Below, piece after piece: positions 3,900-20,149 of a stretch of 38,632 bases of DNA. The notes beneath the pieces were generated by a model. That model searched no databases. It was not told where the DNA came from and worked only from the letters and a program-made list of their open reading frames with translations. The DNA comes from Parcubacteria group bacterium Gr01-1014_29. Its GTDB lineage: Bacteria > Patescibacteriota > Minisyncoccia > Ryanbacterales > 2-02-FULL-48-12. Position 1 is the stretch's first letter; every line of letters starts with the position of its first letter. The DNA lies in the NCBI GenBank assembly GCA_007376195.1, contig VMFT01000005.1, positions 1 through 38,632 of the forward strand. Reading direction: 5' to 3'. A program made the position numbers and the translations under genes.

Positions 3900-4808
3900 A
3901 TGGCTACATTGTGGACACAACGCGATTCCAATATTCGAAAAACATGGTTATTGATGACCGTGTTTTTCATCGTGGTGATGACCATCGGCTGGGTATTTTC
4001 GCAAATCTATGGCAACCCAGGGATTTTGGTGTTTGCGGTATTTTTTAGCATTATCATGAGCCTTGGATCTTATTGGTGGTCGGATAAAATCGTGATTATG
4101 ACAACTGGCGCGCGACCATTGCGCGACGAAGAAGCGCCGGAAGTGCACAACATTATTGAAAATCTTTCCATCACGGCAGGGCTTCCAAAGCCGAAAATTT
4201 ATATGGTGGATTCTCCCCAGCCAAACGCGTTTGCTACGGGTCGCAACGCGGAACACGCAGTGGTCGCGGTTACTACTGGAATTTTGCGGATTATGAACCG
4301 CACTGAGCTTGAAGGAGTGCTCGCGCATGAGATGAGCCATATTGGTAATCGCGACATGCTCATCTCCACGGTGGTAGTGGTGCTTGTGGGGTTTATTCAG
4401 CTTCTTTCGGACATGTTTTTGCGTTCTATGTGGTGGGGGAGAATGGGTGGGGGGGATCGCGATAACAATTCATCTCACATGGTGTTTCTTTTGATAGGCA
4501 TAGTCCTTGCGATTTTAGCGCCCATCGCGGGAATTTTAATGCAACTTGCGGTTTCCCGCAGGCGTGAATATCTAGCTGATACGTCAGGAGCGTTGCTCAC
4601 GCGCTATCCCGAAGGACTTGCGTCTGCTTTAGAAAAACTTGCGCGGGACCATACGCCTATGCGCCAAGCTAACCACGCCACGGCCCATCTGTGGCTTGAT
4701 GACCCATATCAAGGCAAAGAAAAGAAAACATCGTTTATCACCCGTATATTCATGACCCACCCGCCGATAGAGGATAGGATAAAGAGGTTACGCGGGATGG
4801 GTGTATAA
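3900..4808 (+). CDS. htpX: HtpX-like membrane zinc protease (M48)
   Basis: 302 residues. Two membrane segments (about 15-35 and 40-60) are followed by the cytoplasmic protease core. The zinc site is H143-E144-x-x-H147 (AHEMSHIGN), with the third ligand E223 in RREYLADTSG. Further hydrophobic stretches lie at about 155-175 and 193-218. HtpX degrades misfolded membrane proteins. It probably forms one transcript with lemA across the inserted four-helix-bundle cassette. No Shine-Dalgarno sequence is visible; the ATG directly follows the repeat arm. Confidence 0.92.
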   Translation: MATLWTQRDSNIRKTWLLMTVFFIVVMTIGWVFSQIYGNPGILVFAVFFSIIMSLGSYWWSDKIVIMTTGARPLRDEEAPEVHNIIENLSITAGLPKPKIYMVDSPQPNAFATGRNAEHAVVAVTTGILRIMNRTELEGVLAHEMSHIGNRDMLISTVVVVLVGFIQLLSDMFLRSMWWGRMGGGDRDNNSSHMVFLLIGIVLAILAPIAGILMQLAVSRRREYLADTSGALLTRYPEGLASALEKLARDHTPMRQANHATAHLWLDDPYQGKEKKTSFITRIFMTHPPIEDRIKRLRGMGV

Positions 4809-4896: not shown

Positions 4897-5225
4897 CGCG
4901 GGATGGAGGAGCAGTACCTCGTCAGGCTCATAGTTTAATCTGTGACCTTCCATAGTAATGTGGAACGGAAAAATTTCCGAAATTGCTGGAAAGTCGTGAG
5001 AGCTTTTCTTGCTACAGCGTAATCTGAAAGGATAAGCGCGAATGCGTGAAAAAAGAAAAGATTCGACAATCAGCAGCCAAATCTCAATGTAAATTGGGAG
5101 AGGTTCAGAGACTATAATGGAAATCTCCTATCATGAGATAGGAGAGTGGTATAGTCCATTCTTTCTGGAAACAGGAGGTGTAAAAGAACCTGAAGGCGCC
5201 GGTGCAATTCCGGCTCCCGCAACCA
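4897..5225 (+). tRNA. Initiator tRNA-fMet(CAT), split by a group I intron
   Basis: Exons are 4897-4931 and 5187-5225, joined between the anticodon's last base (U36) and A37. The acceptor stem CGCGGGA/TCCCGCA leaves C1 opposite A72, the initiator hallmark, and CCA is encoded (5223-5225). The D stem GAGG/CCTC, anticodon stem TCAGG/CCTGA with CAT at 4929-4931, and T stem GCCGG/CCGGC all pair. Odd points: A29-U41 replaces the third G-C pair of the initiator anticodon stem, the D loop is only seven bases and lacks GG, and the T loop reads T-G-C where T-T-C is normal. A hairpin directly downstream (5223-5259) pairs the CCA end with GCGTGG. Confidence 0.9.
4932..5186 (+). ncRNA. Group I self-splicing intron in tRNA-fMet
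   Basis: 255 bases with no ORF. All four conserved group I core elements are readable: P (AATTGCTGGAAA, 4981-4992), Q (AATCAGCAGCCAA, 5068-5080), R (GTTCAGAGACTA, from 5103) and S (GGTATAGTCC, 5148-5157). A P8-type hairpin CTCCTATC/GATAGGAG lies between R and S. The 5' exon ends in U, which can pair with a G in GTGACC (from about 4940) as P1 requires, and the intron ends in G. Excision restores a seven-base anticodon loop. It should self-splice with a guanosine cofactor. Confidence 0.9.
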
Positions 5226-5289
5226 CGCAAAGTGAATTGCTTTGCAATTCACCGCGTGGCACGCAGCAAATGCAAAGTGTCACGCGAGG

Positions 5290-5315
5290 AAAAACCGCCA
5301 AAAGGCGGTTTTTCC
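5290..5315 (+). terminator. Terminator after the tRNA gene
   Basis: Perfect ten-base arms AAAAACCGCC (5290-5299) and GGCGGTTTTT (5304-5313) around AAAA. Confidence 0.85.
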
Positions 5316-5334
5316 GTTTGTTTTGGAAAAGAAA

Positions 5335-5363
5335 AAGCCCGATCGGTTTTGCCGAAAGGGCTT
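5335..5363 (-). terminator. Terminator for the leftward gene at 5388
   Basis: AAGCCC (5335-5340) pairs with GGGCTT (5358-5363), with an inner CGG/CCG. Read leftward it ends in a T-run. Confidence 0.7.
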
Positions 5364-5387
5364 GGGACGATGTGGGTGGAGGAAAAG

Positions 5388-5828
5388 TTACATGTGTTTT
5401 ACTTCAACAAGGTCTACTTTGCTGGTCGTAATCCAGACATCCAGTGGCAGGCGCAAGACAACCTTTGTTTTTTCCAAACTCTGAATACTCGCTGGAGTTT
5501 GGGGTCGTCTGGACGCTGAAAGGTTTATGCCTCCCGTCACATTGCCGCGAATAGCAATACCACCAGCTCCCGCTGCAACCGCCCCTTCTCCGATAGCAAC
5601 TCCTCTGCTATGTGGAGTCTCTACCATGGAGTCAATGTACACCTCGAGATTTTTGGCGTAGTGGGAGTAGTTTACCTCGCCTTGTAAAACCTCTAGCTCT
5701 ACTCCTTCCCCCCTACCAGAGAACTCTACAACAACCTCCGGGATCCAGCTTACCTCCACTAGTTCCACGTTTCCTTTTTTGAACGTGGTTTTCGAGGACA
5801 CTTTGTTGAGTTTCCCGTTTAGAGCCAT
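5388..5828 (-). CDS. Unknown protein with a Gly/Ala-rich repeat-like segment
   Basis: 146 residues, first gene after the tRNA. GGAGG four bases before the ATG and a consensus promoter (5860-5888) support it as a real gene. The N-terminal half alternates short beta-like segments (VELVEVSW, VVVEFSG, VELEVLQGEV). Residues around 75-100 read VAIGEGAVAAGAGGIAIRG, a pattern seen in beta-helical or adhesin-head-like stretches; the rest is beta-prone. There is no signal peptide or membrane segment. I do not recognise the family. Confidence 0.75.
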   Translation of the reverse strand: MALNGKLNKVSSKTTFKKGNVELVEVSWIPEVVVEFSGRGEGVELEVLQGEVNYSHYAKNLEVYIDSMVETPHSRGVAIGEGAVAAGAGGIAIRGNVTGGINLSASRRPQTPASIQSLEKTKVVLRLPLDVWITTSKVDLVEVKHM

Positions 5829-5859
5829 TCTACCTCCTTAATGGAATAGATTCTTTGAC

Positions 5860-5888
5860 ATTATCTCAGCATGTTTAATGTTTGTCAA
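5860..5888 (-). promoter_or_regulatory. Sigma-70 promoter for the gene at 5388-5828
   Basis: On the minus strand TTGACA (5883-5888), 17 bases, then GATAAT (5860-5865). Confidence 0.75.
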
Positions 5889-5952
5889 CCCCACCGTAAT
5901 GTTTCAATACCTTCGCAACACAGTTTCGTTGAATTTTCCCAAAGCAACAATA

Positions 5953-5993
5953 TCCCGAAAAATCTGGTTCCAAGTAACTCCGGCTCCCGCAAC
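5953..5993. repeat. Copy of the tRNA-fMet 3' end (att-like), degenerate R2
   Basis: The last 15 bases, TCCGGCTCCCGCAAC, are identical to the end of the tRNA-fMet gene through the first C of CCA. The start (TCCCGAAA) resembles the start of the R2 repeats at 8253 and 9213, with the middle missing. Confidence 0.65.
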
Positions 5994-6113
5994 AAAGTCG
6001 GACTCGCTATCCGTATTATCGCGAAATAGCGTTAGTACAGGCGACAAAACGGCGGTGCACCAAGCATCGTTTGTTTTGTTTACTTCTGAAACGCTTTATG
6101 ATAGATTAGGCTT

Positions 6114-6347
6114 ATGAAAAAAAATGATATAAAAATTTCATACGATGCTGATGCGGATGTAATGAGTTGGGAGACGACACAAAAAGGAAAAATCGACTAT
6201 GCAACAGAAATTGGTAATTTTGTGGTACATTTTTCAAAAGACAATAAGCCACTGCTTATAGAAGTTTTGGAAGCCTCAAAAATTCTCAAAAAAAGTGAAC
6301 GGAAAATTGAGAAAGCTCGTGAGCATGAAGTCGTTGGCACTCGTTAA
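6114..6347 (+). CDS. DUF2283 family protein
   Basis: 77 residues. ISYDADADVMSWE, then IGNFVVHFSKDNKPLLIEVLEAS, is the DUF2283 pattern, a small domain of unknown function often near toxin-antitoxin or mobile genes. The C-terminal 20 residues are a basic helix. No Shine-Dalgarno is present; TATGAT ends about 12 bases before the ATG, so the mRNA probably has almost no leader. It is the only rightward gene of this accessory block. Confidence 0.75.
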   Translation: MKKNDIKISYDADADVMSWETTQKGKIDYATEIGNFVVHFSKDNKPLLIEVLEASKILKKSERKIEKAREHEVVGTR

Positions 6348-6360
6348 ATTTTAAGAACAA

Positions 6361-6388
6361 AAAAGCCTCGCTCGTAAGCGAGGCTTGC
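6361..6388. terminator. Bidirectional terminator
   Basis: GCCTCGCT (6365-6372), CGTA loop, AGCGAGGC (6377-6384). An A-run on the left becomes a T-run for leftward transcripts. It separates the DUF2283 gene from the convergent genes at 6442-7255. Confidence 0.85.
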
Positions 6389-6441
6389 TCAAAGATTTGA
6401 GTGGCCGAACGGATTGTTCCGATTGGGCTGTATGGAAGTTG

Positions 6442-6813
6442 TTATTTTAATTCGGAATGACTCCAGAAAAAGGGGTCTTTAAATCCTGCCCATTCTCCAA
6501 TTCCTTTTACAATGTCTCGGGAGTCTAATTTCGTCACAACAGCAAAACGAAGTGTTGCAAGAAGAATAGCCACTACAATAGATTGAGCATTAGGCGCTAA
6601 ATCTTTATGCAGCAATTGTTTGAAAGAATTAATGTTCAGGGGCGCACCGTTTTCAAGGAGTTCTGCAAGACGACCCGTTTCTATACTGAGATGTCTGAGT
6701 ACTTCGCCCGTATAGGATTTTAGATTGTCATCGGTCAATCTCGGGTGACGTTTACTGATAACATACATTATATTCCTAATGTCTGCAGGCATGCCGCCGT
6801 CTATAATTGCCAT
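6442..6813 (-). CDS. Unknown small helical protein
   Basis: 123 residues from the ATG at 6813, chosen because GGAGG lies seven bases upstream. An in-frame ATG at 6855 would overlap the previous gene and has no such site. The protein is mostly helical, with no signal peptide. The segment SIVVAILLATLRFAVV (about 83-98) is hydrophobic but looks like a buried helix. It follows the gene at 6833-7255 by 19 bases, so the two form an operon. Family not recognised. Confidence 0.7.
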   Translation of the reverse strand: MAIIDGGMPADIRNIMYVISKRHPRLTDDNLKSYTGEVLRHLSIETGRLAELLENGAPLNINSFKQLLHKDLAPNAQSIVVAILLATLRFAVVTKLDSRDIVKGIGEWAGFKDPFFWSHSELK

Positions 6814-6832
6814 AACGAATCCTCCCTGTTGT

Positions 6833-7255
6833 TTACTTCGTTGTAGGAAGTTCATACGTTCCTGACACCATTGGCGTTTTGATTTTCTTCTTTTTGTCCA
6901 GCGAATCTGTTTCCATAATCATTACGTTAGGTGTATCTACCAACGTTTTTTCTTTTCCTTGATATCTCTGCTCATATCGTTCAGCATGGAGAACTGCTTC
7001 CTCGCCAACTTGTCGCTTAACACCGATACCTTCTAGCTTTGCCACATAACCACCGCCATAAGCGATAAAATCATCCAGAGGAATCGTTCTGTATCCTCGC
7101 TTTGCGTATTCAGCTTCCCACTTTTTCCATTTTTCAAAGAGCTCGTCAAAGCCTACGCACTTGCCCATGTAGATATAGCTTACTGCATCTCCAAAGGCAG
7201 TACCCGTTTTTACATACTCTCTTTTTACAAGAGCGAACGGCAATAGCTGCTTCAT
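6833..7255 (-). CDS. Unknown protein, first gene of a two-gene operon
   Basis: 140 residues with GGAGG eight bases before the ATG. Charged and soluble, with an aromatic-rich helix (ELFEKWKKWEAEYAKRGY, about 39-56) and a Lys-rich C-terminal region. I do not recognise a family. A plausible promoter (7291-7319) overlaps the edge of repeat R1. Confidence 0.7.
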   Translation of the reverse strand: MKQLLPFALVKREYVKTGTAFGDAVSYIYMGKCVGFDELFEKWKKWEAEYAKRGYRTIPLDDFIAYGGGYVAKLEGIGVKRQVGEEAVLHAERYEQRYQGKEKTLVDTPNVMIMETDSLDKKKKIKTPMVSGTYELPTTK

Positions 7256-7290
7256 AGTTCACACCTCCAAAAATATGTAGTTCTTGGATA

Positions 7291-7319
7291 TTCATACCAT
7301 GCGATATAAACTATTGCAA
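7291..7319 (-). promoter_or_regulatory. Probable promoter for the 7255-6442 operon
   Basis: Minus strand TTGCAA (7314-7319), 17 bases, TATGAA (7291-7296). A weak match. Confidence 0.5.
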
Positions 7320-7322
7320 TTA

Positions 7323-7463
7323 CACCAAAAACGGCACCCCCCGCCACTTCTTGAAATCTATCAAGTCCTGTACAATCTGGTGCACATTCCGTCCCAGAGC
7401 CGCAACATTCAAGAAAACAGTCGCATGGCGCGACTGTTTTCGTTTTTGAAAACAAAAAAGCCC
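7323..7463. repeat. Repeat R1, copy A
   Basis: 141 bp matching 8644-8784 without length change. The left 90 bp are diverged and the right 50 bp almost identical. It contains a perfect 12-bp stem hairpin (7413-7441) followed by T-rich then A-rich sequence, so it works as a back-to-back terminator. Each copy lies downstream of a leftward gene that is preceded by repeat R2. Confidence 0.8.
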
Positions 7464-7489
7464 CTCCTCCGTTAAAACTTCGGAAGGGC
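7457..7489 (-). terminator. Terminator for the gene at 7536-8180
   Basis: GCCC (7460-7463) and CCG pair with CGG and GGGC (7481-7489). Leftward it runs into TTTTTTG. Confidence 0.6.
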
Positions 7490-7535
7490 AGGCCGTACGG
7501 ATGTCCGATTGGGTTGTGGTACCTGGAGATATGTA

Positions 7536-8180
7536 TCATGCAGTTAGGTTGGACGGTGTTCGCTCCTTGGTATCAATGTTGATATCAAGTTCTGAAATAT
7601 CTTCTCCGATGCTGTGTAGATATGACTGATACAAACGGAGCATATTTCTTAGTTCGTGACGTTCGCTCAAACTGGTAATCTTCTGTGAATTTCTGAGGAC
7701 AATCACAATGAAGTTATGAACATCTTCTGGTGGTACCGTTGTACCATCTGCGAGGCGACTATTCAGGCCATCATATAGACGCATGAACTCGTAAAAATAA
7801 TTGCTCCACCATTCTTCTTTGTCTGTTTCCATCCATTCACTGGCTAACCGATATTCATGCAACGCCGACTTCTCGCCCCAAACCATGAGTACATTGATTT
7901 TCTCTTTTGGATACCAACTGAAATGTGCTCTACCAGCGTGATGCCGTATTTCTTGGGGTGTTACAATCTGTAAATTGTGACCCTCGTTTGCAAGAGAAAG
8001 AGATGCAGAATTGAGGGCGAGGTGGCTTATAACCTGATTACGTGTAAGTGGCCGCCAAAAATGGTAGCCATGATGACTCCTGAATGCGTATGCAAAATCC
8101 GTGGAAATCAGAGCTAGCTCATTTATCAAAGGAGAGTAATCTTCCTCGCGAGGAATCTCTTTCCTGAATTTCTTGTCCAT
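7536..8180 (-). CDS. Unknown 214-residue protein
   Basis: GGAGG six bases before the ATG and a promoter at 8209-8237 support this gene. It is soluble, rich in His and Trp (RSHHGYHFWRP, IRHHAGRAHFSWYP, EEWWSNYFYEF), and predicted mainly helical, with an acidic C-terminal tail. The His-rich N-terminal half could bind metal, but no known catalytic motif is present. It stands as a single gene between R1 and R2. Confidence 0.75.
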   Translation of the reverse strand: MDKKFRKEIPREEDYSPLINELALISTDFAYAFRSHHGYHFWRPLTRNQVISHLALNSASLSLANEGHNLQIVTPQEIRHHAGRAHFSWYPKEKINVLMVWGEKSALHEYRLASEWMETDKEEWWSNYFYEFMRLYDGLNSRLADGTTVPPEDVHNFIVIVLRNSQKITSLSERHELRNMLRLYQSYLHSIGEDISELDINIDTKERTPSNLTA

Positions 8181-8208
8181 CGTTCACCTCCGTTCATTTT
8201 CTAAATGT

Positions 8209-8237
8209 TATATAGCACTTATTTGTTTATTTTGCAA
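8209..8237 (-). promoter_or_regulatory. Promoter for the gene at 7536-8180
   Basis: Minus strand TTGCAA (8232-8237), 17 bases, TATATA (8209-8214). Confidence 0.6.
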
Positions 8238-8252
8238 TGATATGATACTTAT

Positions 8253-8368
8253 TTCCCGAAACTCCGTCCATGCAACAATTTTCTGAAACATACGGTTTCC
8301 CGACCTTCGCTAAACCGACCGGCAGACAAAGCTACGGTGGGCAAGCAAGCAATTCCGGCTCCCGCAAC
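8253..8368. repeat. Repeat R2, copy A, ending in a tRNA-fMet 3' copy
   Basis: About 115 bp matching 9213-9321. The central part (CTTCGCTAAACCGACCGG to GGTGGGCAAGCAAGC) is identical in both copies and is a degenerate palindrome. The last 20 bp (8349-8368) are identical to tRNA-fMet 5204-5223, T loop to CCA start. Confidence 0.85.
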
Positions 8369-8518: not shown

Positions 8519-8595
8519 AATAGAAAAAGCCCTTTTTCAAGGACTCTTTCTGTGTCACTCGGGATTGCCCGTAGTGTTACGAACATCCGTTGTAT
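8519..8595 (-). ncRNA. Putative short RNA with promoter and terminator
   Basis: A consensus promoter (8602-8629) predicts a start near 8595. A ten-bp stem with a GAAA tetraloop and U tail (8525-8548) would end the transcript after about 75 bases. No ORF of note lies inside. It contains an 11-base segment (8553-8563) perfectly complementary to 8454-8464 in the tRNA-like RNA. If the terminator is read through, both would be in one RNA and the pairing would compete with the tRNA-like fold. It may instead be the shell of a gene cassette that lost its gene. Confidence 0.4.
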
Positions 8596-8601
8596 GCCTC
8601 A

Positions 8602-8629
8602 ATCTTATCAAATTGTGAATTATTGTCAA
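8602..8629 (-). promoter_or_regulatory. Sigma-70 promoter for the short RNA
   Basis: Minus strand TTGACA (8624-8629), 16 bases, TAAGAT (8602-8607). Same design and flanking bases (TATTGACAA-like) as the promoters at 14493, 15491 and 16699. Confidence 0.65.
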
Positions 8630-8643
8630 TAGCAAGAACCGTT

Positions 8644-8784
8644 CACCAAAGACGGCAGTTCCTGCCACTTCTTTGAATCCAGCAAATCTTGCACAATCTG
8701 GTACACATTCCGTCCCAGAGCCGAAATATTCAAGAAAACAGTCGCATGGCGCGACTGTTTTCGTTTTTGAAAACAAAAAAGCCC
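8644..8784. repeat. Repeat R1, copy B
   Basis: Second copy of the 141-bp R1 element (see 7323). The 29-base hairpin is at 8734-8762. It is followed by a leftward terminator-like stem GCCC/GGGC around CGGATGTCCG (8781-8805). Confidence 0.8.
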
Positions 8785-8899
8785 GCACGGATGTCCGATT
8801 GGGCTTTGTAATGGATTTAGTAAATCTGTTTCTACCGAAACGTGTATTTGAATCCGAAGCGGGGATATACATCTCCGCCGATTACCTGCAGTTCTGTTC

Positions 8900-16768: not shown

Positions 16769-19700
16769 ATGCCCAAAAAAGAGCCGAAAAATAAAAAAGT
16801 TGCAGAAGAAAAGTCTTCCGACTATGGGGCGAAGGATATTTTTGTTTTGGAAGGGTTGGATCCGGTGCGGAAGCGCCCGGGGATGTACATTGGTTCTACG
16901 GGACCGGATGGCCTACATCATTTGATTTGGGAGATCGTGGATAATTCAATAGACGAAGCGATGGCGGGATATGCAAAGAATATCGAAATCATTCTTCTTC
17001 CCAAAAACCGCGTTCAAGTATCAGATGACGGTCGTGGTATTCCTGTGGATACACATAAGCAGACAAAGAAGTCGGCGTTAGAGACCATTATGACAACGTT
17101 GCATGCCGGAGGGAAATTCGGTGGCGGGGCATATAAAGTATCGGGCGGGTTGCATGGCGTGGGCGCATCAGTGGTAAACGCGCTTTCGGTCTGGATGCGC
17201 GTGGAGGTATGCAAAGAGGGGGGCTTGTACGTGCAGGAGTATCAACGCGGAAAACCAAAAGCGGCTGTGAAAAAAATTGGAACGTGCGGGGCCAACAGTA
17301 CCACGGTTACATTTGAGCCGGACCAGGAAATTTTTAAGGAGATAGAAGAATATAATTGGAAACGCGTGCTCGACCGCCTGCGCCAGCAGTCGTACCTTAC
17401 GCGCGGCATTCGCATGACGCTCCGCGATGAGCGCAAAGATACGCCAACCAGCGGACAAGGCTACGGGTTTTACTTTGAAGGCGGTATTGCTTCATTTGTG
17501 AAATATCTCAACCGCGACTTAACGGCGGTGCATGATACGATTTTTTATGCCGCAAAGACCGTAAACGACATCCAGATAGAACTTGCGTTGCAGTATGCTG
17601 ATGATCTGCAGGCGCGCGAGATGGGGTTTGCGAACAACATTTACACACAGGAAGGCGGTATGCATATTACGGGCTTCCGTACGGCGCTTACCCGCGTGTT
17701 GAACGATTACGCCCGAAAGAATTCATACCTAAAGCAGGACGAAGAAAACCTTATCGGCGAAGATGTGCGTGAAGGTCTTACGGCCATTGTATCCTTGCGG
17801 CTTAAAGAAACGCAGTTTGAAGGCCAGACAAAGTCAAAGCTTGGCAATCCCGAAGCGCGTACGGCAGTTGAATCTTTTTTTGCGGAAGCATTTGGCGCGT
17901 ACCTTGAAGAAAATCCGGCTGACGCACGGGCCATTGCCGGAAAAGTGATCCTTGCCGCAAAAGCCCGCAAAGCCGCAAAAGCCGCAAAAGATACCATTTT
18001 ACGAAAGGGGATACTTGATGGCATGACGCTTCCCGGCAAGTTAGCCGATTGCCAGTCGAAAAGCGCGGAGGAGTCAGAACTCTTTTTGGTGGAGGGCGAC
18101 TCGGCTGGTGGTTGTTTTTCTGGAGATACAAAAATTGCACTTACCGATGGACGCGCCATTACATTTCAAGAACTTGTTGAGGAGTGTCAACAGGGAAAGA
18201 AAAATTATTGTTACACTATTGCCGAGAACGGGTCTATTGCTGTAGGAGATATTACTAATCCGCGCGTGACTAAAAAGAACACAAAAGTTGTTAAAGTTGT
18301 GCTCGATAATAGAGAGGAGATAACCTGTACTCCAGAGCATAAATTTATGCTCCATGACGGAACGTTTAAAGAAGCTCAACACCTTACTCAACATGATTCT
18401 TTAATGCCTCTCTATCGCAAGTATTCAGAAATTGCCGGAAATATCACTATCAGGGGGTATGAAATGATATTTGATCCGTCTAAGCATCGTTGGATATTTA
18501 CGCATATTCTTTCAGATGTCTATAATCTTCTCCGGGGAATATATGCTGAAGTACAGGGTCCCCATCGACATCATCAGGATTTTAATAAGATTAATAACAA
18601 TCCAGACAATCTCGTTCGGCTCTCTCGCGAGGAGCATTTAGAAACACATCGCAGATTAGTAAAATATACACTGCATAGACCTGATGTACTCGAGAAGGTG
18701 CGAGAGCTTCATAAAACTCCAGAATTCAGAGAGAAAATACGCAAGGCAATGACAACTCCCAAAATGCATAAACTATTGAGTGTACGAGCAAAGAAGCAGT
18801 GGGAAAATGCAGAATATAAGAAATTTATGATAGAGAAATTTCTTGATTTCTATCAGAAAAATGAAAGTTATAGAGAGGTTTCCCAAAAGATATTGGCGCA
18901 AGCACAGGAAGCATATTGGAGTAGCGAAGAGAATCGGCAAGAGCAAGCAAAGCGTGTGCGCGAGCATTTTAAGAATAATCCTGAGCGCAAAGTGTGGCTT
19001 GCTGATATTGCACAAAAACAATGGGATAATAAAAAACTTCGAATGTGGCGGAGTGAAAAAACAAAAGAGCAATGGACTCCGAAATTTCGCATGCAACGGA
19101 AAGTCGCTTATAACAAGACGTATTATGAACATTCAGTAGGAGCTTTGTATGAGATATATAGAACGAGAGGCAGTGTTGATTCTCAGGAATATGAAACACG
19201 AAGAAAAAAGACTCAAAATAAAAATTTGTTGAAGTATGATACTATTCTTGATCGGTTTTTTGCGGGCGATACAAGAGAGCTTACAACTGCAATCCAGAAT
19301 TACAACCACCGAATCAAGAGTGTAATGAGACTAGAAAAAAAGATTGATGTATACGATATTGAAGTTCCGGGTACGCATAATTTTGCACTTGCATCTGGCG
19401 TATTTGTGCACAATAGTGCAAAGGGCGCGCGGGATCGCCGCATACAGGCGATTTTGCCGCTGCGGGGAAAAATTTTGAATGTGGAGCGGGCGCGGCTTGA
19501 TAAAATGCTTGCCTCAAAAGAGATAAAGGCGCTTGTTATCGCGTTGGGGGCTGCCATCGCGGATGAGTTTAATCTTGAAAAAATCCGGTATCACAAAATC
19601 GTAATCATGACGGATGCCGATGTGGACGGCGCGCATATCAGGACGCTTCTTTTGACGCTATTTTACCGCTATTACCGGCCGGTGGTGGAGGCGGGGTATT

Positions 19701-20149
19701 TGTATATTGCCCAACCCCCGTTGTATAAAATAAGCAAAGGACGCGAATTCCGGTATGCATACACCGAAGCAGAAAAAGAAAAAGTTCTTGAAGAAATGCA
19801 GCACGTGCGCGAAGAAAAAAAGAAGGTTGGCAAAGGAACCACAAAAATAATGGTGGAAGAAGATGAGTCTAAAGATGCAAAAGAAGATGAAGTCATTACC
19901 AGCGAGGAAGGAATAGGCGAGATGTACAAGGGTTTCAACATCCAGCGCTATAAAGGTCTTGGTGAGATGAACCCCGATCAATTATGGGAGACTACCATGG
20001 ATCCGGCGCGTCGGGTGCTTCTGCAGGTAACGGTGCGCGATGCTCAAGAGGCCGACCACATTTTTGATATCCTTATGGGCGATGAAGTTGCGCCCCGAAA
20101 GTCCTTTATTCAAACCCATGCCAAAGCGGTGAAGAATTTGGATATTTAA
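16769..20149 (+). CDS. gyrB: DNA gyrase subunit B with an intein
   Basis: 1126 residues encode GyrB (692 after splicing) plus a 434-residue intein at 449-882. The GHKL ATPase has E55 and N59 (WEIVDNSIDEA), SDDGRGIP and GLHGVGASVVNAL. The Toprim acidic motif LVEGDSAGG (440-448) is split from SAKGARDRRIQAILPLRGKIL by the intein. The metal-binding DADVDGAHIRTL and C-terminal QRYKGLGEMNPDQLWETTMDP follow. An acidic/basic insert (EEKKKVGKG to KEDEVITSEEG) lengthens the tail domain. GyrB hydrolyses ATP to drive negative supercoiling with GyrA, which is not in this window. Active gyrase requires the intein to splice out. Confidence 0.96.
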   Translation: MPKKEPKNKKVAEEKSSDYGAKDIFVLEGLDPVRKRPGMYIGSTGPDGLHHLIWEIVDNSIDEAMAGYAKNIEIILLPKNRVQVSDDGRGIPVDTHKQTKKSALETIMTTLHAGGKFGGGAYKVSGGLHGVGASVVNALSVWMRVEVCKEGGLYVQEYQRGKPKAAVKKIGTCGANSTTVTFEPDQEIFKEIEEYNWKRVLDRLRQQSYLTRGIRMTLRDERKDTPTSGQGYGFYFEGGIASFVKYLNRDLTAVHDTIFYAAKTVNDIQIELALQYADDLQAREMGFANNIYTQEGGMHITGFRTALTRVLNDYARKNSYLKQDEENLIGEDVREGLTAIVSLRLKETQFEGQTKSKLGNPEARTAVESFFAEAFGAYLEENPADARAIAGKVILAAKARKAAKAAKDTILRKGILDGMTLPGKLADCQSKSAEESELFLVEGDSAGGCFSGDTKIALTDGRAITFQELVEECQQGKKNYCYTIAENGSIAVGDITNPRVTKKNTKVVKVVLDNREEITCTPEHKFMLHDGTFKEAQHLTQHDSLMPLYRKYSEIAGNITIRGYEMIFDPSKHRWIFTHILSDVYNLLRGIYAEVQGPHRHHQDFNKINNNPDNLVRLSREEHLETHRRLVKYTLHRPDVLEKVRELHKTPEFREKIRKAMTTPKMHKLLSVRAKKQWENAEYKKFMIEKFLDFYQKNESYREVSQKILAQAQEAYWSSEENRQEQAKRVREHFKNNPERKVWLADIAQKQWDNKKLRMWRSEKTKEQWTPKFRMQRKVAYNKTYYEHSVGALYEIYRTRGSVDSQEYETRRKKTQNKNLLKYDTILDRFFAGDTRELTTAIQNYNHRIKSVMRLEKKIDVYDIEVPGTHNFALASGVFVHNSAKGARDRRIQAILPLRGKILNVERARLDKMLASKEIKALVIALGAAIADEFNLEKIRYHKIVIMTDADVDGAHIRTLLLTLFYRYYRPVVEAGYLYIAQPPLYKISKGREFRYAYTEAEKEKVLEEMQHVREEKKKVGKGTTKIMVEEDESKDAKEDEVITSEEGIGEMYKGFNIQRYKGLGEMNPDQLWETTMDPARRVLLQVTVRDAQEADHIFDILMGDEVAPRKSFIQTHAKAVKNLDI
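18113..19414 (+). other. GyrB intein with HNH endonuclease
   Basis: Begins with Cys (block A CFSGDTKIALTDGR), block B ITCTPEHKFML, and ends VYDIEVPGTHNFALASGVFVHN before the +1 Ser. All splicing residues (C1, the block B T and H, the final His-Asn, Ser+1) are present, so splicing should work. The middle holds an HNH homing endonuclease (GPHRHHQDFNKINNNPDNLV with EHLETHRR). Several NUMOD3-like basic repeats (SVRAKKQWENAEYKK, RSEKTKEQWTPKFRM) probably bind DNA. Insertion in the Toprim EGDSAGG/S motif targets the most conserved point. The insert is visibly more AT-rich and uses more AGA codons than the surrounding gyrB. Confidence 0.94.

Follow-up and report, generated by a model that had tools for sequence, protein, structure and literature searches.

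An initiator tRNA gene split by a group I intron in a Parcubacteria genome, and same-site relatives in its class

In a 38,632-nt stretch of DNA from Parcubacteria group bacterium Gr01-1014_29 (contig VMFT01000005.1; hereafter the window), a first-pass annotation made from the sequence had placed a group I intron inside the gene for the initiator tRNA, between U36 and A37. This raises the questions of whether an essential tRNA gene is split at this locus, whether the cell has another copy of it, and where such an intron came from.

The split gene, its intron and its copy number

With introns allowed, ARAGORN called a tRNA-Met(CAU) with a 255-nt intron at positions 4897–5225; with introns disallowed, it made no tRNA calls in the window. 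A covariance-model search, proposed with the annotation as a check, matched the Rfam group I family (RF00028, Intron_gpI; gathering threshold 50 bits) at 4922–5178 with 79.8 bits (E = 7.2e-19) over the full length of the model (1–253). Read by hand, the exon junction is U4931|A5187, i.e. exactly U36|A37. The tRNA call, the family match and the hand-read junction agree with the annotated intron and its site, and we conclude that 4897–5225 is an initiator tRNA gene split by a group I intron. The intron was also correctly described as lacking an endonuclease gene, its longest stop-to-stop stretch being 65 codons. The parts of the gene and the helices of the intron are as follows.

4897–4931, + strand: tRNA-fMet 5' exon, tRNA positions 1–36, anticodon C34-A35-U36 at 4929–4931 (ARAGORN with introns, in silico exon joining, cloverleaf)
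4932–5186, + strand: group I intron, 255 nt, without ORF, omega-G at 5186 (RF00028 match and boundaries)
5187–5225, + strand: tRNA-fMet 3' exon, from A37 on, CCA encoded at 5223–5225 (ARAGORN, exon joining, cloverleaf)
4928–4945, + strand: P1, exon U33-C34-A35-U36 and A4932-G4933 against the internal guide 4940–4945 (CUGUGA)
4948–4965, + strand: P2 hairpin, 4948–4952/4961–4965, compensatory change in 5 of 5 pairs
4973–5124, + strand: P3, core pseudoknot, 4973–4978 with 5119–5124, compensatory change in 5 of 6 pairs
4983–5076, + strand: P4, 4983–4988 with 5071–5076 (canonical pairs and covariation alignment)
4993–5067, + strand: P5 and extended P5a domain, 4993–4996/5064–5067 and 5003–5010/5053–5060, with a small hairpin at 5022–5033
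5082–5099, + strand: P6, 5082–5088/5093–5099 (canonical pairs and covariation alignment)
5110–5156, + strand: P7, expected guanosine-binding helix, 5110–5115 with 5151–5156, nearly invariant
5125–5144, + strand: P8 hairpin, 5125–5132/5137–5144, compensatory change in 6 of 7 pairs
5161–5178, + strand: P9 hairpin with GAAA loop, 5161–5167/5172–5178 (canonical pairs and covariation alignment)

All core helices from P1 to P9 consist of canonical pairs, and both the U-G wobble at the 5' splice site (U36, at 4931, with G4942) and the terminal G are present, so that the core elements and the two splice junctions can be read as had been claimed. The wobble is invariant across six aligned same-site homologues. 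In that alignment 96.8% of cells are paired, and sliding the helix partners lowers pairing to 41–49%. Double-sided changes occur in 44 of 85 pairs, compared with 19.0 ± 3.0 in shuffled alignments, and none of 500 shuffles reached as high a number. The compensatory changes in these six relatives support the predicted fold, including the P3 pseudoknot. A by-eye search for P10, the pairing of the guide with the 3' exon, found it poor or absent.

When the exons are joined in silico they form a cloverleaf tRNA-Met with an encoded CCA, a CAU anticodon, a C1-A72 mismatch and A11-U24. Bacterial initiator tRNA-fMet has a CAU anticodon, an unpaired 1:72 position and A11-U24; hence the mismatch and A11-U24 mark this tRNA as an initiator. 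Three G-C pairs from 29:41 to 31:39 are usual, if not invariable, in bacterial initiator tRNAs; here the first is replaced by A29-U41, and G30-C40 and G31-C39 are kept. The uninterrupted fMet gene of a genome from the same order (L109) also has A-U at this pair, which shows that the deviation is not confined to the interrupted gene.

A second, uninterrupted tRNA-fMet gene was named at the outset as the finding that would lessen the significance of the intron. We found none in the assembly, a draft of 1.08 Mb in 52 contigs that is given as 100% complete. A blastn search with the spliced gene as query returned only the gene's own two halves and a 20-nt fragment, and a junction pattern, with up to three mismatches allowed, matched only the interrupted gene. 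The other CAU tRNA (contig C39) is an elongator, with a paired G1-C72. As no intact copy was found, initiation of translation should depend on splicing of the fMet intron, to judge from the assembled sequence; in a draft of 52 contigs, a collapsed or missing intact copy is conceivable.

Other features of the window were seen in passing. An exact 20-nt copy of the fMet 3' end (tRNA positions 53–72; the original ends before 5222) lies 3.1 kb downstream, at 8349–8368, and in a related genome (G002) two copies of this kind are separated by 4 kb (L149; G002:C76:102-121 and 4117-4135). These repeats look like the attachment sites of a small integrated element at 5226–8368, whose ORFs matched no Pfam or NCBIfam family. 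Two ORFs, at 7252–7539 and 8555–8872 (−), have a repeated peptide in common (FLFSKTKTVAPCDCFLE...). The DNA gyrase B gene at 16769–20149 contains an intein, with the splicing domain at residues 457–882.

A family of introns at the same site

RF00028 matches were found in 32 of 54 relatives, many of them within tRNA genes, and a search with the spliced fMet gene across 238 genomes of the class revealed split fMet genes. Using a covariance model of the 3' half, we identified matches above 70 bits in 26 of 384 class genomes, the source genome included. Every one of these introns lies at U36|A37 of tRNA-fMet, with U36 before the intron, a terminal G and a GUGA or GUGG guide. The locus had been put forward as an example in a CPR-like genome worth recording; the U36|A37 intron stands, as one case among these 26 rather than as a one-off. 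The longest open stretch in any of the 26 introns is 94 codons, too little for an endonuclease gene. In three genomes of one family, C33 in the exon is matched by GUGG in the guide, so that exon and intron have changed in a compensating way. U33 is near-universal in tRNA; the initiator tRNAs of these three genomes (L261, L262 and L266, in G068, G252 and G184) have C33 with a guide changed to match. When 380 genomes sampled from the phylum were searched, matches from outside the class reached no more than 62 bits, and those that we inspected are apparently in other tRNAs or in fMet at U33|C34. A 3'-junction pattern had no matches in named genomes.

The tree of the 26 introns requires nine host-family changes, the fewest possible, compared with 18.6 when host labels are shuffled, and the source genome (G000) is weakly placed in it (85/25). 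The sequences thus suggest inheritance mostly within host families, a pattern that is only partly resolved. In two members of the host's own family the fMet gene is uninterrupted (G001 and G003; empty sites L103 and L104), indicating that the intron was gained in the window lineage or lost in theirs. These empty sites are what would be expected of a mobile intron that entered the source genome alone, and recently. We nonetheless regard such an insertion as unlikely relative to inheritance within an old family, given same-site homologues in 25 other genomes of the class that cluster by host family, with an endonuclease in none of them. A further case is genome G037, where fMet is split across two contig ends (end of C4, L127; start of C6, L141) with an overlap of ~22 nt, as would be seen if the population contained one fMet version without an intron alongside another; its genus-mate G081 carries the fMet intron.

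Relation to cyanobacterial, phage and other introns

Group I introns in tRNA-fMet are known from cyanobacteria (PMC8450103; PMC4033280), where they have been described as recent gains via lateral transfer (PMC4033280; see also PMC8450103); that of Synechocystis PCC 6803 is 655 nt long, with the enzyme I-Ssp6803I (PMC1995217). The Synechocystis intron and that of the window are both group I introns in the anticodon loop of the initiator tRNA. By contrast, the window intron is 255 nt long and has no ORF, and the two sites are compared here through non-cyanobacterial relatives of I-Ssp6803I, which lie at U33|C34.

We observed fMet introns at U33|C34, with another guide, in G078, G188, G316, G302, G533, G448 and G523. 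Introns at U33|C34 of fMet also occur in contigs of Omnitrophota (L167/L226), Planctomycetales (L174) and Nitrospirales (L242). Some U33|C34 introns were misread by ARAGORN as tRNA-Leu(CAA); for these we corrected the boundaries manually, by the rule of a U-G pair and a terminal G. The U33|C34 group shares with the window intron the tRNA gene and the group I type, and both sites occur within one class; it differs in lying three bases upstream, in its guide and, for some members, in carrying a PD-(D/E)XK nuclease gene. The Omnitrophota intron L167 encodes a PF11645 nuclease (E = 1.7e-43) near PDB entry 2ost (E = 6.5e-47), which we take to be I-Ssp6803I, the nuclease associated with the Synechocystis fMet intron. 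The matches to a 5'-exon pattern were for the most part Met genes of Bacteroidetes, either intact or in repeat arrays, together with the Omnitrophota, Planctomycetales and Nitrospirales introns at U33|C34; no cyanobacterium was among them. Some members of the cyanobacterial fMet intron family lack the PD-(D/E)XK nuclease gene; the window intron has none, with no open stretch longer than 65 codons. Because nucleases like I-Ssp6803I are found in U33|C34 introns of other phyla, the cyanobacterial element is probably a relative of the U33|C34 family and not of the family to which the window intron belongs. The cyanobacterial parallel drawn in the first-pass annotation therefore holds for the gene, whereas the intron family may differ.

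The P4–P6 stretch of the window intron (4981–5080) shares 80% identity over 100 nt (E = 2e-16) with introns of Lactococcus phage AM3, within the tape-measure gene, and of Providencia phage PSTCR6, adjoining the DNA polymerase gene. A Vibrio phage match (75% over 139 nt) is flanked by the major capsid gene and an HNH nuclease gene. Across the phage group I introns (Vibrio phage 1.232.O, ICP1, AM3 and PSTCR6) the likeness is 71–80% over 100–139 nt of P4–P6/P5a, a region on which the phage link rests and where conserved structure could inflate similarity. These introns interrupt or adjoin phage protein genes, and some have a nuclease gene as a neighbour, whereas that of the window is in tRNA-fMet. 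The tRNA-Phe intron of the source genome has far weaker phage matches (best 54 bits), one U33|C34 intron had none, and the P7-P8-P7 pattern of the U36|A37 family had no matches in viral contigs. The likeliest history is that a phage-type ancestor entered tRNA-fMet and lost its nuclease. Lateral acquisition of a member of the cyanobacterial I-Ssp6803I family would fit the identical host gene and the lateral gains described for cyanobacteria; we consider it improbable, since introns with I-Ssp6803I-like nucleases were seen at U33|C34 with another guide, ORFs are absent from the U36|A37 family, and the window core resembles phage introns where the one U33|C34 intron searched had no phage match.

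A second tRNA gene of the source genome, tRNA-Phe(GAA), also contains a group I intron, 227 nt long and inserted at U33|G34 (G000:C40:22177-22476; L002:1479-1778), and no further tRNA-Phe was found among the RF00005 matches of the genome. At least six relatives, including one from the same order, likewise have introns in tRNA-Phe. Two weak group I matches adjoin rRNA genes of the source genome, one of them between two 23S pieces. At L052:1-1443 the 3' end of the 16S rRNA aligns poorly and a group I match lies ~700 bases downstream, which suggests an intron near the 16S 3' end. Three odd tRNA-like sequences (G000:C22:5456-5519, C43:15003-15066 and C34:42603-42674) have a short or odd D-arm or anticodon loop, and two of them adjoin normal tRNA genes.

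The rRNA genes of CPR bacteria have been described as rich in group I introns, roughly half of which have no ORF (PMC11270868). These introns are of the same type and from the same bacteria as the window intron; they differ in their rRNA sites and in the many LAGLIDADG nucleases, and tRNA is unmentioned in the main text of that study, whereas the intron described here is in a tRNA. To judge from its citation in PMC12641178, a 2025 preprint by Nakagawa et al. has the tRNA group I introns of Patescibacteria as its topic, and it may already cover the U36|A37 family. The fMet intron of the window is thus one of many in the class and of a kind already known.

Proposed splicing and significance

We propose that transcription of the fMet gene yields a ~329-nt precursor, in which the GUGA of the guide would pair with U33-C34-A35-U36, so that the initiator anticodon itself would be the 5' substrate strand of P1. 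By analogy with the group I family, a guanosine bound in P7 would attack after U36, and the freed U36 would then attack after G5186 and be joined to A37. The product would be a normal initiator tRNA with the C1-A72 mismatch, A11-U24, CAU and the encoded CCA. Overall, we assign a probability of about 0.93 to the account in which the window holds a self-splicing fMet intron of an endonuclease-free family of the class, passed on mostly within host families and of probable phage-type ancestry, with splicing and phage origin predicted from sequence comparison. That the intron has been kept as a control on the amount of initiator tRNA, through its need for guanosine and a core built on the anticodon, which would make a former phage intron a regulator of translation initiation in the class, seems to us a long shot. 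It is less credible still that the split gene is a pseudogene and that the cell uses another initiator tRNA outside the assembly: repeats can collapse in a 52-contig draft, and G037 may hold two fMet versions, but both exons are whole and bear the marks of an initiator, the intron has an intact core that covaries, the arrangement is kept in 26 genomes, and no further fMet appears at up to three mismatches.

For the self-splicing account, the consequence is that fMet and Phe, two essential and apparently single-copy tRNAs, would both rely on ribozyme splicing in one streamlined genome. A tRNA finder run without an intron option overlooks both genes, and a 'missing fMet' in such genomes may therefore be an annotation gap. 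The 26 same-site, endonuclease-free introns, set against a second fMet site at which some members bear a nuclease, offer a clean set for studying how introns settle in essential genes.
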